Positions 1,594-41,661 of a DNA stretch of 64,000 bases are shown here, piece by piece. Position numbers and translations under genes: made by a program. The notes below the pieces were generated by a model, which saw only the letters and a list, made by a program, of their open reading frames with translations, searched no databases and was not told the origin of the DNA. The DNA lies in contig PDSA01000018.1 in the NCBI GenBank assembly GCA_002748285.1, positions 1 through 64,000 of the forward strand. Reading direction: 5' to 3'. Positions within the stretch are counted from its first letter, which is position 1, and each line of letters begins with the position of its first letter. Source of the stretch: Rhodobacterales bacterium. GTDB taxonomy: Bacteria > Pseudomonadota > Alphaproteobacteria > Rhodobacterales > Rhodobacteraceae.

Positions 1594-2565
1594 ATGCCAG
1601 CAGGAACATATACATATACGCTCTATACCATTTCGGGGAGCGGCAATAACACCTTTACCGTGACCGGCTCTTTTACGGTTACGGTTTACGATGCGGATGA
1701 TAATCTGGGTGTGGGGGATGATTACCCATCCACCGAAACCGGTGCCGCGCCGGTGATTGCGGCGCTTGGCCCCGGTGCGCCAGCGGGCTGGAATGTGGGC
1801 GATACGTTTTATTTCGGTGGCTCACGCGGGATTGAAAGCGGTTCGCCCACTGATGATTATCTTATTCCAAAGGTGGATGGGGGCTGGCAAACCAGCACCG
1901 CGCTTTACAGCCTTCCCGACGCATCGATTCCTTTGGAGATTGGTCAGACCTACACCCGGTCCGGGGCTGCCGGCAATGTGAATGAAGAGGTGCTGCCCTG
2001 TTTCGTGGCGGGTACACATATCCTGACCCCAAAAGGCGAGGTCAAAGTTGAGGATCTGGCCGTGGGCGATCTGGTGCTGACGGCGGATCATGGGATGCAA
2101 CCATTGCGCTGGATTGGTTCCAGCACCCGCCAGGCCGAGGGCCATCTGGCCCCGATCCTGTTTCGCAAGGGGGCGCTGGGCAATGAACGCGATTTGCTGG
2201 TGTCTCCGCAACATCGGATGCTACTCTGTGGTTGGCAGGCCGAGCTGATATTTGGCGAGACCGAGGTTTTGGTGCCTGCCAAATCTTTGCTGTCCGATCA
2301 TACGGTCATTCGCAAAATCGGCGGTCAGGTTTGCTATTATCACCTGTTGTTTGATCAGCACGAGATCATCTATGCCGAGGGGATCCCCAGCGAAAGCTAC
2401 CATCCCAATGACAAAACCATTGCCGGGTTTGACCCGCAATGTCGTGATGAGGTTCTCAGATTGTTTCCCGGGCTGGCAAATGGCGAGGATTGCGCCTATG
2501 GCGATCCGGCCCGCCCCAGTCTCAGCCATCAGGAGGCCACGGTCCTGCATGACTATCTGAGGTGA
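1594..2565 (+). CDS. Hint-domain (Hedgehog/intein-type, Hint_2) protein
   Basis: 323 residues. The N-terminal 130 or so are a Thr/Gly/Asp-rich beta-type region. A Hint domain starts at about Cys136 (CFVAGTHILTPKG), followed by VGDLVLTADHG, the LVSPQHRMLL block and FDQHEIIYAEG. This is the Hint_2 arrangement common in roseobacters. Such domains can cleave or rearrange the bond before the Cys; the biological role of the stand-alone proteins is not known. GAGGCGAG precedes the ATG. No N-terminal Sec signal is visible, so any export would need another route. Two more distant paralogues lie at 39-41.7 kb. Confidence 0.85.
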   Translation: MPAGTYTYTLYTISGSGNNTFTVTGSFTVTVYDADDNLGVGDDYPSTETGAAPVIAALGPGAPAGWNVGDTFYFGGSRGIESGSPTDDYLIPKVDGGWQTSTALYSLPDASIPLEIGQTYTRSGAAGNVNEEVLPCFVAGTHILTPKGEVKVEDLAVGDLVLTADHGMQPLRWIGSSTRQAEGHLAPILFRKGALGNERDLLVSPQHRMLLCGWQAELIFGETEVLVPAKSLLSDHTVIRKIGGQVCYYHLLFDQHEIIYAEGIPSESYHPNDKTIAGFDPQCRDEVLRLFPGLANGEDCAYGDPARPSLSHQEATVLHDYLR

Positions 2566-5345: not shown

Positions 5346-7181
5346 ATGGCACGCACTCCTTTACTCCAACTGAACGAAATCGCGCTCAGCTTCGGCGGCA
5401 ATCCGGTGTTTGAGAACCTGTCTTTGGTGGTGCAACCCGGCGATCGGGTGGCGCTGGTCGGGCGCAATGGCTCGGGCAAGTCCACCCTGATGAAGGTGAT
5501 GGCCGGCCTGATCGACGTTGATCAGGGCGCGGTGGTCACATCGCCCGGGGTTCAGGTGGGATATATGGAGCAAGACCCTGATTTCAAAGGCTTTCAGACC
5601 TTGGGCGACTATGCTGCCAGCGGGCTGATGGCCGGGCAGGAATACCGGGTGGCGCAGGTGGCCGAGGGGCTTAAATTTGACCCGGAGGGCCAGGTTTCGA
5701 CCGCTTCCGGGGGCGAGCGCCGCCGGGCGGCTCTGGCCAAATTGCTGGCCGAAGCCCCCGATCTGATGCTGCTGGACGAGCCGACAAACCATCTGGACAT
5801 TCAGGCGATTGACTGGCTGGAAAGCTATCTGCGCGCCACCCGCACCGGCTATGTGTTGATCTCGCATGACCGGGCGTTTTTGCGCAATCTGACCCGGGCG
5901 ACGTTGTGGATTGATCGCGGCATGGTGCGCCGTCAGGAAAAGGGGTTTGAGGCGTTCGAGGCGTGGCGCGACAAAACCTGGCAGGACGAGGATGCCGCCC
6001 GCCACAAGCTGAAACGCAAGATCAAGGCCGAGGCCCGCTGGGCGGTTGAGGGGATCTCGGCCCGGCGCAAACGCAATCAGGGCCGGGTGCGGGCGCTGGG
6101 GGATTTGCGCAGCCAGCAGGCGGCTCAGATCAAACGTCAGGGCGCGGCCGAAATGGCGCTGGATGCCGGGCAGCAATCGGGCAAGAAGGTGATCGAGGCG
6201 GTCAATATCGGCAAGGTTTATGGCGATAAAACCATCGTTTCGGGCTTTTCGCTGACGGTGCAGCGCGGCGACTGCATCGGCTTTGTCGGGCCCAATGGGG
6301 CGGGCAAGACCACTTTGCTGAACATGCTGATTGGCCGTCTTGAGCCGGATCAGGGCCATGTGACGCTGGGCACCAATTTGCAGATTGCTCTGTTTGATCA
6401 AAACCGCGCCCAGCTGGACCCCGAGGTCAGCCTGTGGGAGAGCATGACCGGCGATGTCGGTTTGCGGGTATCGGGCAAGGCCGATCAGGTCATGGTGCGG
6501 GGCACGCCGCGCCATGTGGTGGGCTATCTGAAAGATTTTCTGTTTGATGAAAACCAGATGCGCGGCCCGGTTTCGGCGCTCTCTGGTGGCGAAAAGGCGC
6601 GGTTGCTGCTGGCGAAAATCATGGCCCGGGAAAGCAATGTGCTGGTGCTGGACGAGCCGACCAATGATCTGGATGTGGAAACGCTCGATCTGTTGCAAGA
6701 GCTGCTGACCGATTACCAAGGCACGGTTTTGCTGGTTAGCCATGATCGCGATTTTCTGGACCGTGTGGTCAAAACCACCATCGCGATGGAGGGCGATGGC
6801 CGCGCTACCATTTATGCTGGCGGCTGGTCGGATTATCAAAGCCAGCGTCAGGACAGGGCGGCGAAAAAGTCCATGGTCAAAAACGAGGTCAAAGAGAAGC
6901 CCGCAGCCGCGCCCAAGACGCCGAAAGAGAAGCAAGCTGAGGGGTTGTCTTTTGTCGAAAAGCACCGCTTGCAAGAGCTTCCGGCGGTGATGGAGCGCCT
7001 TGAGGCCGAGATCGCCAAACTGTCTGAATTCTTGTCCGACCCCGAGATGTTCACGGCCGAGCCGGTCAAGTTTCAGAAGGGCTCGCAAGCGTTAGTCGAG
7101 CGGCAGGCCGCATTGGCCGAGGCCGAGGAAGAGTGGCTGATCTTGGAGGAAAAAGCCTCCAAAACACAAGATATGCCCTAA
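5346..7181 (+). CDS. uup: ABC-F ATPase of the Uup type
   Basis: 611 residues, with two ABC ATPase domains and no membrane segments. Domain 1 has Walker A GRNGSGKST, signature SGGERRR and Walker B LMLLDEPTNHLD. Domain 2 has GPNGAGKTT, LSGGEKAR and VLVLDEPTNDLD. A charged linker separates them, and a C-terminal coiled-coil follows a Lys/Pro-rich joint (about residues 500-610). That tail is the Uup-type DNA/ribosome-binding extension. ABC-F proteins act on ribosomes, and Uup has also been linked to DNA repair intermediates. All catalytic motifs are intact. Confidence 0.9.
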   Translation: MARTPLLQLNEIALSFGGNPVFENLSLVVQPGDRVALVGRNGSGKSTLMKVMAGLIDVDQGAVVTSPGVQVGYMEQDPDFKGFQTLGDYAASGLMAGQEYRVAQVAEGLKFDPEGQVSTASGGERRRAALAKLLAEAPDLMLLDEPTNHLDIQAIDWLESYLRATRTGYVLISHDRAFLRNLTRATLWIDRGMVRRQEKGFEAFEAWRDKTWQDEDAARHKLKRKIKAEARWAVEGISARRKRNQGRVRALGDLRSQQAAQIKRQGAAEMALDAGQQSGKKVIEAVNIGKVYGDKTIVSGFSLTVQRGDCIGFVGPNGAGKTTLLNMLIGRLEPDQGHVTLGTNLQIALFDQNRAQLDPEVSLWESMTGDVGLRVSGKADQVMVRGTPRHVVGYLKDFLFDENQMRGPVSALSGGEKARLLLAKIMARESNVLVLDEPTNDLDVETLDLLQELLTDYQGTVLLVSHDRDFLDRVVKTTIAMEGDGRATIYAGGWSDYQSQRQDRAAKKSMVKNEVKEKPAAAPKTPKEKQAEGLSFVEKHRLQELPAVMERLEAEIAKLSEFLSDPEMFTAEPVKFQKGSQALVERQAALAEAEEEWLILEEKASKTQDMP

Positions 7182-7383: not shown

Positions 7384-8650
7384 ATGGGCTATCGAGCAAA
7401 ATCAATCCTGAGCGCCGCGATTGTCGGCACGGCTCTTGGCGTTTCGGCATTTGCCGCACAGGCTGAGACACTGGCCGGCGCGCTGGCCAAGGCGTATAAG
7501 CATTCCGGTCTGCTGGAACAAAACCGCGCCGTGTTGCGGGCCGCTGATGAGGACGTGGCGCAGGCCGTATCCAGCCTGCGCCCGGTGCTGAACTATTACG
7601 CCAACAGCAAATATACCAGCTACACGAATATGCGGCGCGAGCATCTGACGTCCAATATCGGCTTGCAGGCCAGCCTGTTGCTCTATGATGGCGGCGGGTC
7701 CAAGCTGGCGGTTGAAGGGGCCAAAGAAGCGGTGCTGTCCACCCGGCAGGCGCTGGTCAATGTTGAACAATCGGTGCTGTTACGCGCGGTGACCGCCTAT
7801 ATGAATGTGCGCCGCAGCAATGAATTCGTCGCCCTGCGCCGCAACAATGTGCGGGTTATCACTCAGCAGCTGCGGGCCGCCAAGGATCGTTTCGAGGTCG
7901 GCGAAGTCACCCGCACCGATGTTGCGCTGGCCGAATCACGCCTGTCGCTGGCCCGCGCCAATCTGGCTGCGGCCCAAGGCGAGCAGGCCCGCGCCCGCGA
8001 GGAATACCGCGCCGCCATTGGCAGCTATCCCAAATCCCTCAGCGCGGCTCCCAAGGCTCCGGCCACCGCCGCGTCACTGAAAGCCGCTCGCGCCGTGGCC
8101 TATACCAACCATCCGATGATGAAAAAAATTCAGCACGATATTTCCGCCGCGGAAATCGGTGTGAAACGGGCCAATGCGCTGATGAAGCCCAATCTGAACC
8201 TCAAGGGCAATCTGAATGTGGAATCAGGCCCGCGCTGGGTTGCACATCACCCGCCACGAGATTGCGCAGGGGGTGGGCAATGCTTGGGCCGCGCTGGCGG
8301 TGTCGCGCGCCACATTGCAGGCCAGCATCCGCCAGATCCGCGCCGCTCAGGTTGCTTTTGACGGGGTTAAGGAAGAAGCCACCTTGGGCGCCCGCACCAC
8401 GCTGGATGTGCTGGACGCGGAACAGGAATTGCTGGACGCCCGCGCCAACCGTATCTCGGCGATGACGGATCAATATGTGGCCACCTATAGCCTGCTCTCG
8501 GCTATGGGTTTGCTGACGGCGGATCATCTGAAGTTGGGCATCCACACCTATGACCCGGCGGCCTATTACAACGCGGTGAAGAACGCGCCGGCCGACAGCA
8601 GCCAGCGCAAGCGTCTGGACCGGGTGCTGCGGGCCTTGGGTAAGAAATAG
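7384..8650 (+). pseudogene. tolC: TolC-family outer membrane efflux protein, disrupted by internal deletion and frameshift
   Basis: The first part (7384 to about 8220) has a signal peptide (VSAFAAQAET) and the first TolC half, including NVEQSVLLRAVTAYMNV and FEVGEVTRTDVALAE. The homology then continues in another frame from about 8228: RAGLHITRHEIAQGVGNAW, TTLDVLDAEQELLDAR and YSLLSAMGLLTADHL. The whole span is 1267 nt, which is not a multiple of three. It lacks the stretch that normally links the two halves (SGxxxYQGG region), perhaps 40-70 codons. The product as read would be a 325-residue truncated protein unable to form a TolC barrel. A good GAGGGATC ribosome site remains. Either a real lesion or an assembly error at 8215-8235. 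Confidence 0.88.
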
Positions 8651-8742
8651 CGCCAAGGGCAAAAATCATAGAATTGTTGCTTTCTATTGTGCGGTTCTGG
8701 ATATGACGCTATCATCTCGTCGAGGTTAAATCGGGAATCCAA

Positions 8743-36736: not shown

Positions 36737-37840
36737 CTAGCCGATATGGAACAGAGTGTTAAACAGCTTGGGATCCAGACTTTCGGCCACAAAACTGTCG
36801 CCCTCGGTCAGGATGCTGACCGCATCATGGCTGTGCAGGCTCTCCTGATGGCTGGCAATCACTCGAAAATCCGCGATCCGCTCATCGGCTTGCAGCTTTT
36901 GCGCAAACAGCCGGGCGGCGTCTTCAACAAAAATCGGATGGGCGGCGTTGAGTTCGGCAAAGGCTTGTTCGTCTTCGCGTTTGACCATCACTTGCGTTTC
37001 TGTCGGCACCGCCGCCCGGCAGATGTCGATCAAATCTTCAAACCACAGCCGATCTTCGCCGGGAATGGTTTGCACCGAGATCCGCGCCACCGAGCGTTGC
37101 GAATGTGGGGTGGCCAGTTGCCCGCGGGTTTGCCGGGCATGTTCCGCCAGCTCCAGCGAGCAGGGGCAGGTCGAGGAATAGACGTAATCCAAATGGATAA
37201 ACCGCTGCACCACCCCGCCCTTTTCCACCAGCTCCAGTGCAATATCGTAATACTGATACCCCGACAGCCCCGAACGCAGAGACTGGGTTTTCAACGGAAA
37301 CGAAAACCGCATCTGGATGCGGGCGTCAAAGCTGTCCAGATCGCTTTTATAATCATTCAGCGCCGCCGTAATCACCGCAAAGCTGAAAGTCTTTTCCGCA
37401 TGGGCGTAAAATGTGCGCATGATCCGCGACATGTTGATGCCCTTCTTTTCCGCCTCAAGGCTGACCGTGCCAGTGACCGACGTCTCCAGCCGCAGATCCC
37501 CGCCATCGCGCGAATGAAAGCGGATCGGCAGGCGAAAATTGGAAATTCCCACATGCTGGATCAGCCTTTTATCGCCCTTGATCAGGCTTTCGGGCCCGTT
37601 TTGCAGATCGGGCAGCGAAGCCTTATAGGCTTCATCCACAGTGAATTCCTCTGGGTAAGCCCGGGCCAGCGCCGGATAGTTCGAGACCTGGCGATCGGGC
37701 AACAGCCGCGAAATCGCCGGGTCCAGCTGTGCCACTTCCAAAGCCGAGACCGAACCCGCCCATTTGCGCAGCTTCTTTAACGCCTTTTCGGCCTTTTTGC
37801 GGGCTTTTGCCGCGTGCTTATCTGCGGGCTGGCTGTTCAT
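36737..37840 (-). CDS. folE2: GTP cyclohydrolase FolE2 (type IB)
   Basis: Makes 7,8-dihydroneopterin triphosphate, the first folate precursor, in place of zinc-dependent FolE. 367 residues; the active-site Cys lies in YSSTCPCSLEL, with IQHVGISNFRLPIRF and MSRIMRTFYAHAEKTF as family blocks. ATG 37840 (MNSQPADKHAAK) has AAGG upstream; the longer track ORF is not supported. FolE2 is often Zur-controlled, but no Zur box was recognised. It follows metZ by 82 bp on the same strand and may be read from it. Confidence 0.93.
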   Translation of the reverse strand: MNSQPADKHAAKARKKAEKALKKLRKWAGSVSALEVAQLDPAISRLLPDRQVSNYPALARAYPEEFTVDEAYKASLPDLQNGPESLIKGDKRLIQHVGISNFRLPIRFHSRDGGDLRLETSVTGTVSLEAEKKGINMSRIMRTFYAHAEKTFSFAVITAALNDYKSDLDSFDARIQMRFSFPLKTQSLRSGLSGYQYYDIALELVEKGGVVQRFIHLDYVYSSTCPCSLELAEHARQTRGQLATPHSQRSVARISVQTIPGEDRLWFEDLIDICRAAVPTETQVMVKREDEQAFAELNAAHPIFVEDAARLFAQKLQADERIADFRVIASHQESLHSHDAVSILTEGDSFVAESLDPKLFNTLFHIG

Positions 37841-37922
37841 CTTGCCGTCCTTGCCATTGTCTGCCGTTTCCTGAAACGGGATTTGGCCGCCCCTTAGCAA
37901 ATATCTGCGACCAATAACAACT

Positions 37923-38969
37923 CTATACCGCCGCAAGGGCGTTGTTAATATCCTTTAACAGATCGTCGGCATGTTCGATCCCGATGCTCAGACGCACCAG
38001 TCCCGGCGTGATGCCCAGATCGGCGCGGGTCTGTTCTGGTAGGCTTTGATGGGTGGTGGTGGCCGGATGGGTGATCAGGCTTTTGCAGTCGCCCAGATTG
38101 TTGGTGATGGTGAACAGCTCAAGCGCGTTGAGAAAGCGAAACGCTGCCGTCTTGCCCCCGGCAAATTCAAGCGCCAGCAGGTTGCTGCCCCCACTCATCT
38201 GGCGTTTGGCCAGCTCATATTGCGGATGGCTGGGCAGATGCGGGTAGGTGGTTTTGCTCAGCTTGGGATGCTCATCCAGCGCCTGTGCGATTTTCAACGC
38301 GCTATCGGCCATGGCCCGGCAGCGCAAATCCAGCGTTTCCAGCCCCTTGAGCATCACCCAGGCGTTAAACGGGCTGAGCGCGCCGCCGGTGTGTTTCATA
38401 AAAGGCTCGACCGTTTCGCGGATAAAGGCGCGGCTGCCCAAAATCACTCCGCCCAGACAGCGCCCCTGACCGTCAATATGTTTGGTGCTGGAATAGATCA
38501 CCACATCCGCCCCCAGATCAAACGCGTTGGAAAACACCGGGGTGGCAAACACATTATCCACCACCAGCAGCGCCCCGGCCTGCTGGCTTAGCTTGGCCAC
38601 GGCGGCGATATCGACCAGCTCAAGGGTGGGGTTGGCGATGCTTTCGACAAAAACCAGCTTGGTATCCGGGGTGATCGCCTGATCCCAGGCCGCACCGTTG
38701 ACGGCGGCCATGCCCGAGGCACAGGCAAACGCATCCTCACAGCCGTCAAGCGCGGCCATGCGCTCTTCGAACATGCGCGTGGTGGGGTTGCCGTAACGGG
38801 CATAGATGAACTCATCCTTGCCGGATTTCAAAAACCGGGCTTCGGCGGTTTCGGCACTGTCATAGACATAGCCTTGAGTCAGATAGATCGCCTCGGCCAC
38901 CTCGTTGAACTGGCTGCGTTTGATGCCGCAATGCACGGCTTTGGTGCGTTGGTTCCAGTCTTTGTCCAT
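37923..38969 (-). pseudogene. metZ: O-succinylhomoserine sulfhydrylase MetZ with an internal in-frame deletion
   Basis: MetZ joins sulfide to O-succinylhomoserine to make homocysteine. The protein starts MDKDWNQRTKAVHCG and has YSSTKHIDGQGR with the PLP Lys, TGGALSPFNAW and ATTTHQSLP. It is only 348 residues against about 395. The gap is at residue 92 (CASGMAAVNG|AAWDQAIT, about position 38695). It removes the segment that normally carries the GDHVV...ALFGSC block, including the aromatic residue that stacks on PLP. The frame stays open, so a protein is made but is probably inactive. The lesion could be an assembly artefact. A SAM-II riboswitch and terminator precede the gene. Confidence 0.85.
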
Positions 38970-39001
38970 GGTCTTTATCCTCATCCTGGCCGTCTGGGCA
39001 T

Positions 39002-39035
39002 AAAAAAACCCCGAACCGGTGAAAAGGGTTCGGGG
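39002..39035 (-). terminator. Intrinsic terminator in the metZ leader
   Basis: On the minus strand CCCCGAACC pairs perfectly with GGTTCGGGG (39035-39027 with 39017-39009), then seven T follow. The T-run ends 32 bp before the metZ ATG, so the terminator sits between the riboswitch and the gene. It is the likely expression platform for transcription attenuation. Confidence 0.88.
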
Positions 39036-39165: not shown

Positions 39166-40272
39166 CTAGTGTTGAAAGGACTCCAGACATGGTCGACTGT
39201 TTTTCAGATGCCTGTCGACCAGTTTCTTTTGCTGCTTTCCGCTGGGAATGAGGCGAGCGGATTGCAAGGCTGGGTTCCACGCGGCCAATTCTGGAAAAAT
39301 TGACAGAATTTCAGCGCGGGCCCCCGGTGTCAGCCCTTTGAGCGCCTGCGGACCAGTGAGCAAACTTTCACTGGGTGCGCCTTCGGCGAAGATGATTTCG
39401 TGCTGATCGAACAGCAGGTGGAAATACTCGACCGTTTCGACCTGTTCGTCGATAAAGATACCGGGCAGGTTGATCAGCTTGATGGCCGGCACCAGAACCT
39501 CTGACACATCGAACATGCGCCGGGCGACTTTGGAGCGCATCAGCATACGGTGCTGCCGCGAGACCAAAAGATCACGCTTGGGCAAGCCGTTGCCCAATGT
39601 CCCCTGAACAATCCGAATTGGGCGCAGTTTGGTGTTTTGTGCCAGTTGCCCGGCGTTGAATTTGCGTTGCCCGATCCAGCGTATGGTTTGCGGGCCGTGA
39701 TCTTTGGTCAGAACGGTATCGCCGACTCTTAGAGTTTCGATTTTTTGCAGCCCGTTTGGGGTGCTGATTTTGCAGCCCGCAGTAAAACATTGTGGTGTTG
39801 CCAGCGTATTATAGGGCGTTTCCGGGAAATCCTTGGTCGATATAACGGTCAGCGGCACACCAATCGGAGGAAACTCACCCGGCTCTCCAACAAAGGCCAG
39901 CCCTTCAACCGTGCCATAAGCATGGCCGTTGGGGTCCTGCATCGGTTCGTTGATATTAAAACCCAGCAAGGCATACAAATTTCCATCCGGATCCTTTACG
40001 ACGACTTTGTATTCGGCCTCGACCACAAGACCGGCGGCGTATTCTGTCCCATCGTAAGTGATGTCGGATGCGAGGGTTTGGCTTGGATCGTTGTCGTCGA
40101 AAATGTCGTTGTTTACATCATGGATATCGACAGTCACCCAGTTATCACTTTGAAGGGTGATTGTCTGATCGGCAAGATGCGATCCACCGCCTACCGTGTA
40201 GCCGGAGAGTTCTTTGCCCCCGGAAACCGTTACGTTGGACGCTTCCAGCGTATGAATGGTGTGAGTTTGCAT
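39166..40272 (-). CDS. Hint-domain protein, tandem copy A
   Basis: 368 residues. The N-terminal 160 form a beta-rich region (IHTLEASNVTVSGGKELSG). The Hint domain starts at Cys162 (QCFTAGCKISTPNG) with VGDTVLTKDHG, LVSRQHRMLM and FDQHEIIFAEG. The usual Thr after CFTAG is Cys here. It is a paralogue of the adjacent gene at 40555 (same length exactly) and a more distant relative of the gene at 1594. No Sec signal or enzymatic domain is visible. The C-terminal 200 residues differ from copy B at only a few positions, while the N-terminal part has drifted. Confidence 0.88.
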   Translation of the reverse strand: MQTHTIHTLEASNVTVSGGKELSGYTVGGGSHLADQTITLQSDNWVTVDIHDVNNDIFDDNDPSQTLASDITYDGTEYAAGLVVEAEYKVVVKDPDGNLYALLGFNINEPMQDPNGHAYGTVEGLAFVGEPGEFPPIGVPLTVISTKDFPETPYNTLATPQCFTAGCKISTPNGLQKIETLRVGDTVLTKDHGPQTIRWIGQRKFNAGQLAQNTKLRPIRIVQGTLGNGLPKRDLLVSRQHRMLMRSKVARRMFDVSEVLVPAIKLINLPGIFIDEQVETVEYFHLLFDQHEIIFAEGAPSESLLTGPQALKGLTPGARAEILSIFPELAAWNPALQSARLIPSGKQQKKLVDRHLKNSRPCLESFQH

Positions 40273-40343
40273 GTGGTTTACTCTTGAGTTGATGTTTTTC
40301 GGGCTTGCACTACGTCACATTGTTAGCTGTTCCGCATTTTTTT

Positions 40344-40383
40344 TCGCTTAAGGATTGAGCGCGGATTTTATTACAATTTTCAC
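40344..40383 (-). promoter_or_regulatory. Upstream block shared by both tandem Hint genes (copy A)
   Basis: Minus strand TGAAAATT..TA.TAAA.TCCGCGC.CAAT.CTTAAGCGAA lies about 70-110 bp before the start codon. A near-identical block sits at the same distance before copy B. Conservation beyond the coding region suggests a promoter or regulator site containing CTTAAG. Confidence 0.5.
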
Positions 40384-40554
40384 CTTCCGACGGGTGTGCC
40401 TCCGTTCCTTTCGTGGCCTCGTGCTGTTTTGCGTTGTTTCGATGGACCGCGCTCACATGCATGGCGGTTTCATTCCGATGACATACAACCGGTGGTGCCG
40501 CCCGTTCGAAAAAAGCCACATTCGCCACATCAACGGCGATACCGGGCTTTGCGC

Positions 40555-41661
40555 CTAACATGAAAACACCTCCAGACATGGCCGGCTGTTTTTCAGATGC
40601 CTGTAGACCAGTTTCTTTTGCTGCTTTCCGCTGGGAATGAGGCGGGCGGATCGCAAGGCTGGGTTCCATTCGGCCAATTCCGGAAAAATTGACAGAATTT
40701 CAGCGCGTGCCTCCGGTGTCAGCCCTTTGAGCGCCTGCGGACCGGTGAGCAAACTTTCACTGGGTGCGCCTTCGGCGAAGATGATTTCGTGCTGATCGAA
40801 CAGCAGGTGGAAATATTCGACCGTTTCGACCTGTTCGTCGATAAAGATACCGGGAAGGTTGATCAGCTTGATGGCCGGTACCAGAACCTCTGACACATCG
40901 AACATGCGCCGGGCGATTTTTGAACGCATCAGCATACGGTGTTGCCGCGAGACCAAAAGATCACGCTTGGGCAAGCCGTTGCCCAATGCCTCCTTAACAA
41001 TCCGAATTGGGCGCAGTTTGGTGTTTTGTGCCAGTTGCCCGGCGCTGAATTTGCGCTGCCCGATCCAGCGTATGGTTTGCGGGCCGTGATCTTTGGTCAG
41101 AACAGTATCGCCGACTCTTAGAGTTTCGATTTTTTGCAGCCCATTTGGGGTGCTGATTTCACAGCCCGCGGTAAAACATTGCGGCGTTACGAGCGAATCA
41201 TAGGGTGTATCCGGGTAATCTTCGGTCGAGATAACGGTGAGCGGCACACCAATCGGAGGAAACCCGCCAGGCTCTCCGACAAAGGCCAGTCCTTCAACCG
41301 TGCCATAAGCATCGACACCGGGTGGCTGTACCGCTTCATTGATGTTAAAGCCTTGTAGTGTATATATATTTCCGTCCGGATCCTGCACCTCAACCGTGTA
41401 TTCCGGCGTGACAACAAGCCCGGCGTCATGTGTCTCGCCGTTATAGGTGGTCTCCGAGACAAGCGTTTGGTCGGTGTCCCAATCCTCAAAACGGTCGTTG
41501 GAGGTGTCATTGATTTCAACGGCAACCCAGTTGTTGTTGTTCAGGGTGATTGTTTCACCCTCAAGCTGCGATCCATCACCCTCCCAGTACCCGGAAAGCT
41601 CCTTGCCCCCGGATACCGTTATGTTGGAAGCTTCGAGCGTGTAAACAGTGTAAGCCGACAT
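40555..41661 (-). CDS. Hint-domain protein, tandem copy B
   Basis: 368 residues from ATG 41661 (MSAYTVYTLEASNITVSGG); the track's GTG 41709 adds 16 residues absent from copy A. The layout is the same as copy A: beta-rich N-terminus, then a Hint domain beginning QCFTAGCEISTPNG. Start and stop are each exactly 1389 bp from those of copy A, so the repeat unit is gene plus 282 bp of leader. The weak ribosome site (AAGAG-TAAAACAC) is also shared. Function unknown; the same family is often found near secreted repeat proteins in roseobacters. Confidence 0.88.
   Translation of the reverse strand: MSAYTVYTLEASNITVSGGKELSGYWEGDGSQLEGETITLNNNNWVAVEINDTSNDRFEDWDTDQTLVSETTYNGETHDAGLVVTPEYTVEVQDPDGNIYTLQGFNINEAVQPPGVDAYGTVEGLAFVGEPGGFPPIGVPLTVISTEDYPDTPYDSLVTPQCFTAGCEISTPNGLQKIETLRVGDTVLTKDHGPQTIRWIGQRKFSAGQLAQNTKLRPIRIVKEALGNGLPKRDLLVSRQHRMLMRSKIARRMFDVSEVLVPAIKLINLPGIFIDEQVETVEYFHLLFDQHEIIFAEGAPSESLLTGPQALKGLTPEARAEILSIFPELAEWNPALRSARLIPSGKQQKKLVYRHLKNSRPCLEVFSC

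Follow-up and report, generated by a model that had tools for sequence, protein, structure and literature searches.

A mosaic tandem pair of Hint_2 genes in a Rhodobacterales bacterium, probably shaped by recombination between the copies

The gene pair and its surroundings

We analysed a stretch of 64,000 nucleotides, hereafter the window, from the draft genome of a Rhodobacterales bacterium (2.58 Mb, 57 contigs). Positions 39166-41661 correspond exactly to two genes on the minus strand, gene A (40555..41661), the upstream copy, and gene B (39166..40272), the downstream copy. The initial annotation had given both a length of 368 codons and an offset of 1389 bp; both open reading frames were confirmed and align with each other from end to end without a gap. 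The two 368-residue products have the same architecture, a domain of about 160 residues, then a Hint_2 domain and then a tail of 61 residues. The N-terminal domain of A (residues 1-159, 41185..41661, minus strand) is all-beta and has no Pfam family; its counterpart in B (residues 1-159, 39796..40272, minus strand) shares 65% of its residues. The Hint_2 domains (40741..41178 in A, 39352..39789 in B, both on the minus strand) are 96% identical and were assigned from the Pfam profile, the catalytic residues and a Hint fold in Foldseek searches. In the Pfam profile search, PF13403 matched residues 162-307 in A (E = 1.1e-55) and in B (E = 3.5e-55), covering model positions 2-146/147 with scores of 186.9 and 188.5 bits for the pair, against a curated cut-off of 28.4 bits. 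The tail of A (residues 308-368, 40555..40740, minus strand) is helical, of a type named RHLKN here, and has no assigned Pfam domain; that of B (39166..39351, minus strand) was recognized in alignments and trees.

The spacer between the genes (40273..40554) includes the upstream region of B. About 120 bp 5' of the two start codons could be aligned pairwise at some 68% identity, which indicates that the promoter regions were duplicated as well. Pairwise alignment detected no similarity between the copies 3' of their stop codons.

In three relatives of the same genus in which the block was fully read (G001, G002 and G003), the gene order is ftsY-EamA-yciB-metZ-folE2-trkH, with no A/B-like Hint gene in that block. 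In the window, metZ-folE2 (36737-39023) is inverted relative to these genomes, and the Hint pair lies at the metZ/trkH junction. The GC content of the pair (0.53) is below that of the window (0.59), a composition that would be compatible with acquisition. The metZ gene itself (O-succinylhomoserine sulfhydrylase-like, 37923-39023, minus strand) lacks 45 internal residues in frame when compared with G003, owing to either a real deletion or an assembly error. A TolC-like gene at 7384-8660 (plus strand) shifts frame around 8230-8290 and apparently lacks some sequence; it is possibly a pseudogene, possibly an assembly error.

The shortened metZ nearby, the frameshifted TolC-like gene and the draft state of the assembly speak for an artefact, in which a single locus of a metagenomic bin was doubled or pieced together as a chimera of strain variants. 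We nevertheless consider such an origin of the pair highly unlikely. A and B differ from each other at many sites in both halves, their flanks differ, and both copies are intact, align without gaps and lie within the continuous 64 kb of the window.

Divergence along the two copies

Protein identity between A and B was 0.65 over residues 1-159, 0.96 in the Hint domain and 0.89 in the tail. The proposal that the C-terminal 200 or so residues, Hint domain included, are nearly identical was thus borne out for the Hint protein sequence, and also at the DNA level. Identity along the nucleotides was far from uniform: the best segmentation by BIC gave 67% for codons 1-117, 86% for codons 118-168, 96% for codons 169-364 and 47% from codon 365 to the stop. 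A maximum chi-square of 107 was observed over all sites, with values of at most 18 in 2000 permutations (0/2000 reached the observed one); for third positions alone, it was 49, compared with at most 16 in the permutations. The contrast between the N- and C-terminal parts was therefore far beyond chance, but a mosaic with one break at residue 160, as first described, did not hold since the change is stepped.

The same contrast appeared at silent sites. Synonymous divergence (dS) between the copies was 1.01 (CI 0.67-1.53) over codons 1-160 and 0.133 (CI 0.07-0.20) over codons 161-364, with estimates of 0.13-0.15 over the part past codon 160, a 7-fold fall along the gene. Constraint at the protein level does not explain the mosaic, since silent sites follow it too. 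This also bears on positive selection, which the initial annotation had considered in the form of diversifying change of the N-terminal part. The lower protein identity of the N-terminal domain compared with a constrained Hint domain is what such selection would produce. However, dN/dS between A and B was 0.17 (codons 1-116) to 0.23 (codons 1-160) with an upper bound of 0.33-0.35, it stayed within 0.11-0.26 in sliding windows over the N-terminal domain, and the N-terminal domains of B and of the nearest relative yielded 0.15. These values correspond to strong purifying selection. Taken together with the silent sites and with the better conservation of the N-terminal domain than of the Hint domain across the family (see below), they make diversifying selection a most unlikely explanation. 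Purifying selection still acts on both copies, and each is presumably functional.

The nearest relative of A and B, G245, comes from a metagenomic bin and matches PDOZ01000015 (DOLZORAL124_62_15). It is the sole close relative, and its Hint domain is interrupted, with about 44 codons gone and a change of frame (L067, around 6169-6172). We divided the distance between A and B by the mean distance of the two to this relative, a scaling that removes regional rate effects. The ratio was 1.13 (0.95-1.32) for the N-terminal domain and 0.13 (0.08-0.18) for the Hint domain, and the intervals do not overlap. In the triplet of A, B and G245, 126 informative sites of the Hint domain and tail united A with B and 4 united B with G245. 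Trees were discordant as well, (A,(B,G245)) for the N-terminal domain and ((A,B),G245) for the Hint domain, with bootstrap values of 93-100. AU tests did not reject A and B as sisters in the N-terminal domain (p 0.10-0.25), nor B with G245 in the Hint domain (p 0.11).

The drop in dS and the non-overlapping ratios together give good support to recombination, or a variant thereof, between the tandem copies. The initial annotation had already suspected gene conversion of the Hint part, which is in line with both the 7-fold lower dS and the fall of the ratio from 1.13 to 0.13. We consider it probable that A and B are tandem duplicates of a gene and its upstream region, each encoding a beta domain, an autoprocessing Hint_2 domain and a tail, and that their 3' two-thirds were recently homogenised. 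The duplication would be old and the homogenisation of the back two-thirds recent. Homologous recombination between the direct repeats would have carried it out by gene conversion. Two or more nested tracts can be made out, and the latest would span approximately codons 169-364. In A this tract lies at 40570..41157 (minus strand), with 96% DNA identity to B, as delimited by the segmentation and the triplet sites; in B, the segmentation places it at 39181..39768 (minus strand), where it forms the direct repeat D1 with a spacing of 1389. The steps of 67, 86 and 96% in the aligned copies suggest that conversion was repeated.

The main rival reverses the order of events: the whole gene would have been duplicated recently in tandem, and the 5' half of one copy, N-terminal domain and upstream region, replaced from a diverged relative. 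Such a replacement fits both trees equally well, the AU tests fix neither the order of events nor which half moved, and Hint modules and N-terminal domains have demonstrably recombined in other species. We still hold it to be distinctly the less probable course. The upstream regions are as diverged as the N-terminal domains and yet alignable, and the 3' homology ends at the identical place in both copies; an old duplication in place accounts for both and needs no donor, and none was found among the searched genomes. The stepped profile, too, points to repeated conversion. Recombination between the copies is thus the simplest reading, and the mosaic, though clear and well supported, is an ordinary gene conversion in a domain family that is already known. 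It shares with concerted evolution of tandem paralogues by gene conversion a segment homogenised at silent sites, a diverged flanking segment and discordant trees. It departs from the ordinary case in that the homogenised part corresponds approximately to a domain that other members of the family exchange between proteins.

Hint modules and N-terminal domains in the family

Pairwise identities among 54 full-length homologues had medians of 0.53 for the N-terminal domain, 0.43 for the Hint domain and 0.24 for the tail, and Hint identity exceeded N-terminal identity in just 7.8% of the pairs. The N-terminal parts of A and B, initially described as widely diverged, are in fact closer to each other (65%) than the family median of 53%. 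What sets the two genes apart is the excess of Hint over N-terminal identity (+0.305), the highest of 1,431 pairs, the next largest value being 0.191. Since conservation across the family is higher in the N-terminal domain than in Hint, a variable N-terminal part joined to a constant Hint domain reverses the family pattern and is peculiar to A and B.

Clustered Hint_2 genes do not evolve in concert as a rule: 21 other clustered pairs are not homogenised (Hint identity 0.33-0.75, median 0.54), and the event in A and B was therefore local. The other tandem pair carrying the same N-terminal domain (G155, L077) had identities of 0.61 in this domain and 0.59 in Hint, hence no Hint excess. The closest approach to A and B came from two neighbouring Hint_2 genes in L189 (1194-5262 and 5563-6688), with an identity of 0.75 in Hint compared with 0.38 upstream of it; this is possibly a second, older homogenised pair. 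Several genes that combine this N-terminal domain with Hint have another Hint gene behind them, which lies downstream as a tandem neighbour in L115, L133, L142 and L156 and in convergent orientation in L108 and L112.

In the Hint tree, A, B and G245 fall into one clade, which includes RHLKN-tail types and is supported at 100/100. On the tree of the N-terminal domain the members of this clade are scattered, corresponding to at least five changes of Hint type, as for instance between L137 and its close N-terminal sister L136. Weak branches could reduce the count of five; support is nevertheless 100/98-99 for the A/B/G245 group and for the pair of L136 and L137. Recombination between Hint and N-terminal domains has thus taken place repeatedly in the family.

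Hint_2 domains were present in 89 of 101 sampled Rhodobacteraceae genomes, usually in several copies, and A and B resemble these PF13403 proteins in the domain and in its C-terminal placement; they differ from them in sharing a single N-terminal domain family and near-identical Hint halves. The genome studied here has 12 Hint_2 genes. All 12 proteins end 185-212 residues past the start of Hint, irrespective of the part that precedes it, which indicates that Hint and tail act as a C-terminal module. A third Hint_2 gene of the window (1594-2565, plus strand) has an apparently unrelated N-terminal domain, and its Hint domain groups with that of paralogue C11, at a distance from those of A and B.

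The N-terminal domain of A was modelled by AF2 with a pLDDT of 90.8 and a pTM of 0.86. Profile and fold searches of PDB sequences and solved structures gave nothing significant, nor did viral folds; Pfam had no match for A and only single-member chance matches among 38 relatives. With a fold that is unmatched despite a confident model, this domain is the least ordinary part of A and B. Relatives of the domain occurred in 69 of 397 genomes of the family (about 17%). It was absent from the genus relatives, and hhalign did not link it to the N-terminal domains of two other Hint_2 paralogues in the genome. Those relatives that have named records belong to the Rhodobacterales, apart from one bin labelled Alphaproteobacteria only; plasmid-borne relatives all had less than 60% identity, and a scan of viral_contigs with gene A yielded none. 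Weak matches to the domain lie in very large open reading frames (G018:C15, G263, G420 and G256), the first of these (L087 3523-6727) at the N-terminal end of a Hint protein with RTX repeats. The domain may have an extracellular or adhesive role.

Predicted chemistry of the Hint part

In the 54 sequences, C162, S238, H241, R242, H285, H291 and E302 show no variation, and S303 shows almost none. This invariance supports well the earlier prediction that Cys162 would be the reactive residue. The Hint domain was modelled by AF2 with a pLDDT of 87, and the best Foldseek matches were BIL domains and inteins, among them 2lwy and Tetrahymena BIL2 6y75 (E about 1e-4, target TM 0.58-0.68). Inteins and BIL-A domains terminate in a conserved His-Asn (PMC7765530). 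Where inteins have this pair, the present family conserves Glu302-Ser303, and the C-terminal Asn is absent. Splicing is not expected, since both this Asn and a C-terminal partner are missing.

Given the established chemistry of Hint domains (PMC7664689), an N-S acyl shift at Cys162, followed by hydrolysis or transfer, would be expected. From residues and fold, cleavage or transfer at Gln161-Cys162 without splicing is the likely chemistry of A and B. An N-S acyl shift assisted by His241 would convert this bond into a thioester of the N-terminal domain, which water or another nucleophile would resolve. Residues 1-161 would thereby be freed or attached elsewhere, and the Hint part would be left behind.

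With BIL domains of types A and B, the two proteins share the Hint fold, Cys1, the block-B His, which is His241 here, and the expected N-terminal cleavage. They differ from type A in having Glu-Ser followed by a 61-residue tail in place of the C-terminal His-Asn, whereas their motif pattern is compatible with type B, which has the intein motifs minus the C-terminal one. Unlike inteins, they have neither His-Asn nor an extein-like C-terminal domain. Hedgehog/Hog proteins likewise combine an N-terminal cargo, a Hint domain and an extra C-terminal region, and need the first acyl shift alone, but their cargo is unrelated.

More speculatively, and with doubt on our side, Hint_2 and its tail might be an exchangeable processing, perhaps export, cassette of Rhodobacteraceae, moved between unrelated cargos, homogenised separately and transferring the freed cargo to an acceptor. 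The N-terminal domain of A and B would then be one such cargo, with a fold unseen in solved structures. If so, Hint_2 would resemble Hedgehog, which passes its cargo to cholesterol, and would do more than merely cut.

A delivery module for a toxin or adhesin, the function first suggested for the pair, found no support in this form. Polymorphic toxins of the Hint type carry the toxin C-terminal to Hint. The RTX-like repeats of several paralogues, and the known occurrence of Hint domains ahead of toxins in such systems, would suit a Hint pre-toxin domain in a polymorphic toxin or in a protein for contact-dependent delivery. In A and B, however, Hint is itself C-terminal with just the 61-residue tail behind it, nothing toxin-like follows, and it is the N-terminal domain that varies as cargo. 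Toxin, immunity and defence families were unmatched, and the tail had no match in Pfam (above cut-off), NCBIfam or PADLOC. The uniform end of the Hint_2 proteins (12/12 within 185-212 residues of the Hint start) adds to this, and we judge the toxin reading very improbable. Membership of a defence system was rejected, as PADLOC had no match for A and B.

Rhodobacteraceae genomes encode numerous Hint_2 proteins whose autoprocessing site is invariant, and experimental literature on them is very scarce, with PF13403 mentioned by two papers of the library searched; A and B belong to a large, little-studied protein family. A cargo domain that is common to many species and found on Hint modules of different clades offers a convenient system for testing module function. 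Hint and RTX domains are reported to be over-represented in fast-growing bloom Rhodobacteraceae (PMC12487129). Pfam matched no glycine-aspartate calcium-binding RTX repeats in A or B, and a single type I secretion ATPase of the genome scores above the cut-off of NCBIfam.
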